A program made the translations under genes and the position numbers. Shown in pieces: positions 8,583 through 34,277 of a stretch of DNA of 35,786 nt. Under the pieces are notes generated by a model that ran no database searches, was not told the origin of the DNA, and saw nothing but the letters and a program-made list of their open reading frames with translations. Numbering within the stretch: position 1 is the first letter of the stretch; each line of letters starts with the position of its first letter. The DNA lies in NCBI GenBank assembly GCA_919901555.1, contig CAKKPG010000056.1, positions 1-35,786 of the forward strand, read 5' to 3'. The stretch comes from Nitrospiria bacterium (GTDB taxonomy: Bacteria; Nitrospirota; UBA9217).

Positions 8583-9690
8583 ATGCTGCTGGAAGATCTG
8601 AAACAGGAACTGGACAAAGTCAAGGCAAGAAGCGAATCGCTGCGGAGGCATCTTTGACGTTCCCGCCAAGGAAGCGCGTTTAGCCGAACTTTCCCGCCTC
8701 ATGGAGTCCCCGGGTTTCTGGGACGATCAAAGCAAGGCAAATACCATCCTGAAGGAAAAGGCCGTTATCGACCGTTCGCTCAAGGACATGACCACGTTCG
8801 TGCGGCGCCTGAATGATCTCGGCGCCATGGCCGAACTCGCCTCGGAAGAGGGCGGCGAGGCCATGCGGGGAGAGCTGGAGCGCGAGCTCGGCTCCATCAG
8901 GAAGGACATTTCCTCGGCCGAAGTGGCGGCGCTCCTTATGGGAGAACAGGATCTGTCCAACGCCATCGTCTCCATCCATCCCGGCGCGGGCGGCACCGAG
9001 GCCCAGGACTGGGCCGAGATGCTCATGCGCATGTATCTGCGCTGGGCCGAGAAGATCGGCTATACAACGGAGATCCTCGACTACCAGAACGGCGAAGAAG
9101 CGGGCGTAAAATCCGTCACCTTCACGGTTTCGGGCGACTATGCCTACGGCAGGACGAAGGCCGAGGCCGGCGTGCACCGCCTGGTGCGCATCTCGCCCTT
9201 TGACGCGAACAAGCGCAGGCACACGTCCTTTGCCTCGGTCTACGTCTATCCCGAGGTGGAAGAGAACATCGATATCGTCATCGACGAGAAGGAGCTGCGC
9301 ATCGATACCTACCGCTCCTCGAGCGCCGGGGGCCAGCACGTGAACAAGACGGACTCCGCCGTGCGCATCACCCACCTGCCCACGAACATCGTTGTCCAGT
9401 GCCAGAACGAGCGCTCGCAGCTCAAGAACAAGAACGTGGCCATGAAGGTGCTGCGGTCGCGGCTCTATGAATTGCGGAAAAAGGAGCAGGAAGAGAAGCT
9501 CGGCAAGCTGGTGAGCGAGAAGAAGGACATTGCCTGGGGGAACCAGATCAGGTCCTACGTGTTCCAGCCCTACCAGTTGGTGAAGGACCATCGTACCGGC
9601 GTGGAATCAGGGAACGTGAACGCCGTGATGGACGGCGAGATCGAGCAGTTCATCGAGGCATATTTGATGACAGTATCAAGTAGACAGTAG
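8583..9690 (+). CDS. prfB: Peptide chain release factor 2 (programmed +1 frameshift)
   Basis: RF2 recognises UAA and UGA and triggers peptide release. A 24-codon first frame starts at ATG 8583 (AGGAG upstream) and ends at UGA 8655-8657. The recoding site CGGAGG CAT CTT TGA C has the spacing of the E. coli site. The ribosome slips +1 on CTT and continues with GAC at 8656, giving 368 residues, close to the usual 365. The SPF codon-recognition tripeptide (LVRISPFD) and the GGQ catalytic loop (SAGGQHVNKTDSAV) are present. The slip site gives autoregulation: low RF2 favours frameshifting. The last codons (AGT AGA CAG TAG) already belong to the spacer repeat, which supplies the stop. The second frame alone would begin at ATG 8701 and lose the N-terminus. 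Confidence 0.96.
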
Positions 9691-32711: not shown

Positions 32712-32903
32712 GTGAAAAATAATGACCGTTCTGCCCTTTCGCCGAAAGCCCCGCCTTCCGCGGCAGTCTTCGATGCTTCTCCCCTGAAGCACCGAAGCCC
32801 GAACGCGGTGCTCAAGGCCTCCGGCGCCCTGCATTTTCTCTTTTCCCGGTATGTTCGCAAACGATCAGCTGAAAAAAAACTCAACAAGGAGGTAGGTGCA
32901 TGA
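32712..32903 (+). CDS. 63-residue ORF coupled to the cytochrome gene
   Basis: GTG 32712 is preceded by AGGAGGT with 7-base spacing. The frame ends in TGA overlapping the cytochrome ATG (ATGA), the usual sign of translational coupling. The product is basic and mostly polar (RYVRKRSAEKKLNKEVGA at the C-terminus) with no recognised domain and no signal peptide. It could be a small regulator or merely a translated leader peptide. Confidence 0.45.
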   Translation: MKNNDRSALSPKAPPSAAVFDASPLKHRSPNAVLKASGALHFLFSRYVRKRSAEKKLNKEVGA

Positions 32904-34183
32904 AGGCTTTCAAGCTCATTGCGGTACTCGCCTTCCCCGTCCTGCTGCTCGCCGCGCCGGCCGTTGGCCGGAACGCGGACGCCCAGGATAAGAAGGCGAA
33001 GAGCATCGACGAACTGGCCAGGATGTATGATTCCAGCTCGTGCAAGCAGTGCCATGAAGAGATCTACAACGACTGGAACAAATCGCTCCATGCCCGGTCC
33101 ATCTTCGGGACCGGAAGGACCGCCGCCACCATCAAGACGACGGTGGAAGTGGGACTCAAGGGTTGGAAGCACTCGGGGGTGAAAAAACCCGAGGACGTGG
33201 AGTTGCGGCACCTCATGATCTGCGCAAAGTGCCATCTTCCCCAGCTCGCCGATGCTACTGACGCAGTGGCCAAGGAGATCGTGAAGGCGGCCTACGTCTA
33301 TGCCGACCCGAAATCGAGCGACGCGGAGCGCGAAAAGGCCGTTGCCAGGCTGGAGAAGGTCAACATCAACTGCCTCATCTGCCACCAGCGCAATGCCATC
33401 ACCCACAAGTGGGTCGACGGCACGCCGGAAAAAAAGGCCGTGTACGGCTCCAAGGACGGAGCGCACCCCGCCCCCGGTCATCCTGCCCTCAAAAAGAGCC
33501 CCATCATGGGCGAATCTATCCTCTGCGGCCAGTGCCACGGCCTTGGGCCGAACTTCGAGCTCGAGAACCCGTCGCAGTGCGCCACGCTCTACGGCAGCTT
33601 CCTCTGGGCGTACCGGGCCGAGGGAGGCCAGGAGGCGTGCCAGGAATGCCACATGAAAAAGAGCAAGCTGGGCCACAACATGCAGAGCTACCGTAGCCCC
33701 GCCATGGCCAAGGCCGCTGTTGACTTCAAAGTCGAAATGCTCCCGAACCACTGGCGTGACGGCTCCAAGATGGTCCCGGAAAACCTTGTGAAAGTGGAGC
33801 TGCTGAACAAGGCGGGACATGCCATCCCGGACGGCTGACCAACACCCAACCGGCTGGTCCTGGAAGTGACCGCTAAAAATAATGCAGGAAAAGAGATCTT
33901 CAAAGCATCAAAAATTTACATGCCCATCCCTCAGCAACTCGGCCGCGGCGACAAGATGGGCCGTGGCCCCTATGAAAAGAGCGGAATTCTCCGCGACTCA
34001 AGCCTCCCGCCCAACCGTCCCGTCAAAGAGGACTTCGAGATCCCCTATCCCTCGGGCGAGTATGACATGACCGTTGACGTGGAACTCTGGTATCTGCCCT
34101 TCGGCACCAAGTCCGACCCGGACAACGCGTTCCTGTGGCAGAAGGTAACGAAGAAGGCGAGCATCGAAAAGGGCGGGGTGTAA
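32900..34183 (+). CDS. Five-haem c-type cytochrome with in-frame UGA at codon 313
   Basis: The first 312 codons encode an exported multiheme cytochrome: signal peptide (MKAFKLIAVLAFPVLLLAAP), then CxxCH at residues 48-52 (CKQCH), 108-112 (CAKCH), 158-162 (CLICH), 209-213 (CGQCH) and 247-251 (CQECH), in a cytochrome c554-like arrangement. TGA at 33836-33838 interrupts a frame that stays open for another 114 codons. That part continues a plausible beta-rich domain (NRLVLEVTAKNNAGKEI, YDMTVDVELWYLPFG). The product is either read through as one 427-residue protein, perhaps with selenocysteine, or truncated after HAIPDG. All haem sites precede the UGA, so the short form would still bind haem. AAGGAGGTAGGTGC precedes the ATG. 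Electron transfer in the periplasm or beyond is the expected role. Confidence 0.8.
33852..33874 (+). promoter_or_regulatory. Stem-loop with bulged U downstream of the in-frame UGA
   Basis: GGC, bulged U, GGUC pairs with GACC, GCU around an 8-base loop CUGGAAGU (7 pairs, one G-U). The loop begins 21 bases after the UGA, within the spacing known for bacterial SECIS elements. The first two loop bases are C and U, which does not meet the usual G requirement, so this is only a candidate. Confidence 0.3.
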
Positions 34184-34232: not shown

Positions 34233-34277
34233 AACGCCGGCGACGGGATCCATTAACCATCGCCGGCGTTGTTTTTT
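34233..34277 (+). terminator. Rho-independent terminator of the cytochrome gene
   Basis: AACGCCGGCGA and TCGCCGGCGTT form a perfect 11-bp stem with a 16-base loop, followed by GTTTTTT. It lies 50 bases after the full-length stop codon and not after the internal UGA, which supports the longer reading frame as the original transcription unit. Confidence 0.9.

Follow-up and report, generated by a model that had tools for sequence, protein, structure and literature searches.

In the Geobacter literature, ExtKL is a cytochrome with five hemes for which a selenocysteine (Sec) was predicted, and which annotation splits into two genes, extK and extL (PMC5877670, PMC6148476). The Geobacter work also connected the ext cluster, via ExtI, with the reduction of selenite and tellurite, and ExtKL was called a candidate. 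ExtKL is also among the prokaryotic selenoprotein families listed by a 2026 review (PMC13188914). In NCBIfam the family is represented by NF040886, an equivalog model named "multiheme c-type cytochrome (seleno)protein ExtKL" (cyt_C_like_Sec) with a curated cut-off of 250 bits. Structures of a homologue, "Multiheme cytochrome c selenoprotein (MccSep)", are in the PDB (9WT8-9WTC). The original prediction for the locus described here implied that Sec in a multiheme cytochrome would be new. Such novelty is not supported: the prediction of Sec in ExtKL dates back years, and solved structures are now available.

The locus lies in a 35,786-nucleotide stretch of DNA from a Nitrospiria bacterium (the window). 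The protein obtained by reading through its in-frame UGA matched NF040886 over its full length (residues 7-422, 589 bits), and its best PDB matches were the MccSep chains, with about 400 residues aligned and E ~1e-167. Opposite codon 313 the PDB sequence has X in the wild type (9WT8) and Ala in the U325A mutant (9WT9). All five heme motifs, Cys227 and Sec313 fall within the aligned residues, but MccSep is a homologue and a different protein, and the two differ by a short insertion near the C-terminus. Five CXXCH motifs were found in the window protein and in 64 of 65 family members. Like ExtKL of Geobacter sulfurreducens (GSU2937-GSU2936), the window protein has five CXXCH motifs, is predicted to be exported, and carries the in-frame UGA in PDG-U-PTPNR; three Geobacteraceae relatives (L014, L015, L038) align with it end to end and have UGA at the same column. 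Unlike Geobacter extKL, the window gene has fabF upstream and ends in its own terminator, and no ext-type cluster (extHIJ/MNOPQS-like) was recognised around it. Its neighbours, fabF and the genes further upstream, were common only to close Nitrospirota. Location in an ext cluster is seen in Geobacter but is not required by the NCBIfam model, and hence does not define NF040886.

Cytochrome c552 (PDB 5ZE8) was a weak match (E ~1e-6) with a similar HA(M/I)P-G segment, but it has Ala at the aligned position and no Sec. Searches of plasmid and phage collections returned one distant plasmid cytochrome and no phage match. It is well supported that the gene is a new Nitrospirota member of the already described selenoprotein family ExtKL/MccSep, and not a new kind of system.

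The gene and its surroundings

The features of the gene are listed in Table 1. As originally predicted, codon 313 is TGA in a frame that stays open for 114 further codons, up to a TAA at 34181-34183, and it is the only in-frame TGA of the ORF, which is preceded by a good ribosome-binding site. Since an open run of this length is by itself weak evidence (P ~0.044 by chance at the mean stop frequency of the window), the case rests on homology. The region past codon 313 has homologous counterparts in about 50 other genomes.

Table 1. Features of the cytochrome gene, with positions in the window
Feature	Position	Strand	Evidence
Shine-Dalgarno sequence AAGGAGGT	32886..32893	+	sequence
CDS, ExtKL/MccSep-type pentaheme c-type cytochrome selenoprotein, 427 aa including Sec313	32900..34183	+	NF040886, 589 bits; PDB 9WT8/9WT9, E ~1e-167; ORF
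Probable N-terminal signal peptide MKAFKLIAVLAFPVLLLAAPAVGRNADA (putative periplasmic export)	32900..32983	+	inferred from sequence
Heme motif 1, CKQCH, residues 48-52	33041..33055	+	translation; conserved in family
Heme motif 2, CAKCH, residues 108-112	33221..33235	+	translation; conserved in family
Heme motif 3, CLICH, residues 158-162	33371..33385	+	translation; conserved in family
Heme motif 4, CGQCH, residues 209-213	33524..33538	+	translation; conserved in family
Cys227, candidate partner of Sec313	33578..33580	+	sole non-heme Cys conserved in 65/65 family members
Heme motif 5, CQECH, residues 247-251	33638..33652	+	translation; conserved in family
UGA codon 313, predicted to be read as selenocysteine, HAIPDG-Sec-PTPNR	33836..33838	+	TGA in 52 of 55 relatives, Cys in the other three; aligned PDB residue X, or Ala in U325A
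C-terminal region, predicted to be translated only upon Sec insertion; family-conserved	33839..34180	+	PDB, relatives and NF040886 matches
SECIS hairpin GGC-U-GGUCCU-GGA-AG-U-GACCGCU	33852..33874	+	fold; synonymous-site constraint at codons 319-324; family pairing
Intrinsic terminator after distal stop	34233..34277	+	fold, -26.7 kcal/mol, z = -5.1

The terminator that had been proposed after the distal stop codon is real. It consists of a perfect 11-bp stem (34233-34243/34260-34270) followed by T6; its loop exceeds 8 nt, which is why a simple scan for terminators did not find it. In other genes UGA acts as an ordinary stop here, as the original prediction had also noted: prfB in the window carries the canonical RF2 programmed-frameshift site CTT-TGA-C (8652-8658). 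A 63-aa GTG ORF (32712-32903) with its own Shine-Dalgarno sequence overlaps the start of the cytochrome (ATGA). This ORF was not conserved in any relative, and it is probably a chance or lineage-specific ORF.

Codon 313 and the downstream hairpin in relatives

We compared 55 relatives from GTDB genomes, which were fetched by peptide patterns that exclude the codon-313 site. They span Nitrospirota and Desulfobacterota, with identity down to about 29%. At the column of codon 313, TGA was found in 52 loci and a Cys codon in the other three (TGT, TGT, TGC), while TAA, TAG, TGG or any other residue occurred in none of the 55. The homologue alignment had been suggested as a check on Sec, and the outcome named as speaking against it, homologues with neither Cys nor Sec at the site, was not the case in any locus. 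On a tree of 65 members, two or more Sec/Cys changes are required to explain the Cys forms. The genome also has a second ExtKL gene (contig C194, 56% identical), whose TGA lies in the same motif. More distant homologues, at 33-40% identity and in some cases with PDG-U-LW, were considered as a possible new family, but those tested exceed the NF040886 cut-off.

The invariant non-motif residues in the 65 members include His64, His307, Asp311, Cys227 and Sec/Cys313. A gene family that includes a protein starting MLKIAIAGGGIGGSALISLL was near the cytochrome in 16 of the 55 loci (L002, L003, L010, L015, L028, L044 and others). This family recurs downstream of the cytochrome elsewhere, and the window has no gene of it.

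A stem-loop with a bulged U had been predicted downstream of the UGA, with its loop 21 nt away and lacking the usual early G. The fold is real (-8.0 kcal/mol), but the distance of 21 nt holds only when the hairpin is drawn as CUGGAAGU, with an eight-base loop. In the minimum-energy fold two inner pairs (CU/AG) are added and a GGA loop lies 23 nt past the UGA, so the missing G was a product of the eight-base drawing. The bacterial SECIS model asks for a loop of 3-9 nt whose first two positions include a G, a distance of 16-37 nt to the UGA, and an MFE <= -7.5 (PMC13188914). The hairpin of the window agrees with this rule in its loop, distance and energy, although its stability is borderline.

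On its own, the window hairpin was no more stable than shuffled sequences (z = -0.48), and an Rfam search around the UGA returned no SECIS family and no other significant match. Since the single-hairpin fold is not significant, family-level constraint was used as evidence. Normalised codon entropy was about 0.09-0.27 at codons 320, 321, 323 and 324 and 0 at codons 319 and 322, compared with a mean of 0.85 over 144 other conserved codons. Nowhere in the gene is synonymous variation lower than in the stretch that starts at codon 317 and covers the hairpin codons 319-324. Pairing of the core stem was found in 89% of cells, against 23-61% when the stem was slid, and none of 1000 shuffles reached this level. 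Covariation was modest; two-sided changes were few, and 53 of 1000 shuffles reached their number. The sequence downstream of the UGA in the window gene matched the family consensus, and the Cys-bearing homologues do not have the hairpin consensus.

In the three Geobacteraceae relatives the hairpin is CCGAC-UGGUUCU-GUCGG, whereas most other members have GGUC...GACC, which is farther from the UGA. The window gene has GGUC...GACC, whereas Geotalea (Geobacteraceae) has CCGAC...GUCGG. These sequences suggest that one SECIS element has taken the place of another inside a single family.

Selenocysteine machinery in the genome

The genome assembly (G000; 3.45 Mb, 220 contigs, 96.5% complete) encodes a tRNA-Sec (selC) with anticodon TCA on contig C7 (7852-7946), which scored 61.7 bits against a gathering threshold of 47 and was also called by ARAGORN. 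It encodes selD on contig C10 (381.8 bits), in which TGA is at the classic Sec site GAG-U-ACK, and a formate dehydrogenase gene, fdhA, with TGA at the classic Sec site CARY-U-H. An FDH-like gene on contig C148 (1769-4615) has one in-frame TGA and is probably another selenoprotein gene. The original prediction had called for a search for selA, selB, selC and selD; selC and selD were thus found, but selA and selB were not found in the assembly. A genome lacking selB or selC had also been named as an outcome against Sec; selC is present, and the missing selB is most simply explained by a problem of the assembly.

The absence of selA and selB from a 96.5%-complete assembly raises the alternative that a recent loss of both genes in the lineage has left UGA as a stop only and the downstream half of the cytochrome gene as a relic. 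In the relative G001, the neighbours of selB-selA are tRNA-Sec, a Rieske/cytochrome b set and an antiporter gene. Contig C7 carries the antiporter, tRNA-Sec and Rieske/cytochrome b part of this region, and in the place of selB-selA it has a decayed, repeat-rich MFS-transporter fragment (L072, 4662-5630, and L117, 5045-8537) with three repeats that are about 91-94% identical, and this speaks for a loss. However, an assembly gap fits the repeat-rich junction and the position of smc, on the other side of the region, only about 125 bp short of where contig C218 ends. Moreover, selA was found in 12 of 13 family relatives (one of them a fragment), the 13th genome being only 74% complete, and selB adjoins selA in the relatives inspected; we therefore read the absence here as an assembly gap or a relocation. 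The tRNA-Sec, selD-UGA, fdhA-UGA and both ExtKL-UGA genes are intact, the frames downstream of their UGA codons are open, and the SECIS sequence of the cytochrome fits the family consensus. Because at least four intact UGA-bearing selenoprotein genes have been kept, true loss seems far less likely than a gap or a relocation, and it is very improbable that the cytochrome gene has been left without a means of reading its UGA. Although a lone in-frame TGA, seen in one contig of a MAG, might as such come from mutational decay or a sequencing error that gives a premature stop, or be read through generically with a near-cognate amino acid, the homologues already refute these explanations, which we consider negligible, since the same TGA recurs across the family with Cys as the only alternative and the PDB homologue was deposited as a selenoprotein.

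Predicted function and significance

Sequence comparison shows that the protein belongs to the family, that column 313 is conserved as Sec or Cys, and that the mRNA is constrained in the manner of a SECIS element. We thus consider it almost certain, from comparative evidence, that the product is an exported selenoprotein of the ExtKL (MccSep, NF040886) family, a c-type cytochrome with five hemes, and that UGA 313 specifies Sec. Among the three readings that the original prediction had left open, selenocysteine, read-through and decay, the first is strongly supported by homologues with only TGA or Cys at the site, a solved selenoprotein homologue, SECIS constraint, and the tRNA-Sec and other selenoprotein genes of the genome. 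Following established bacterial Sec biology, SelB with Sec-tRNA-Sec would bind the hairpin and insert Sec at UGA 313. Without Sec insertion, the product would end after heme 5 and the C-terminal domain would be lost.

Based on the Geobacter literature and the sequence, the cytochrome probably functions in periplasmic electron transfer, where Sec313 would be a redox-active or ligating residue near the invariant His307 and possibly Cys227. By analogy with Geobacter, a role in the reduction of selenite or another oxyanion is plausible, but since no ext-type neighbours were recognised in the window, selenite or tellurite reduction is only a lead. The invariance of His64, His307, Asp311, Cys227 and Sec/Cys313 suggests that Sec313 may ligate heme or pair with Cys227. 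A catalytic or ligating Sec313 that is more than a structural variant, acting as an axial heme ligand or in a selenenylsulfide with Cys227, is a tentative proposal that we regard as rather less probable than not. If it is true, a two-electron selenol site would be coupled directly to a heme wire.

A quarter of the protein is lost when standard gene callers stop at codon 312, so annotation readily turns genes of this kind into two, which is what happened with extK and extL. The family has already been described, and what is gained here is breadth and supporting sequence evidence, with no new principle. The comparison shows that Sec is an old feature of this cytochrome family and has been strongly retained in Nitrospirota and Desulfobacterota, where Sec and Cys were exchanged independently at least twice. 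This conservation argues that selenium serves a purpose in the electron-transfer chain.
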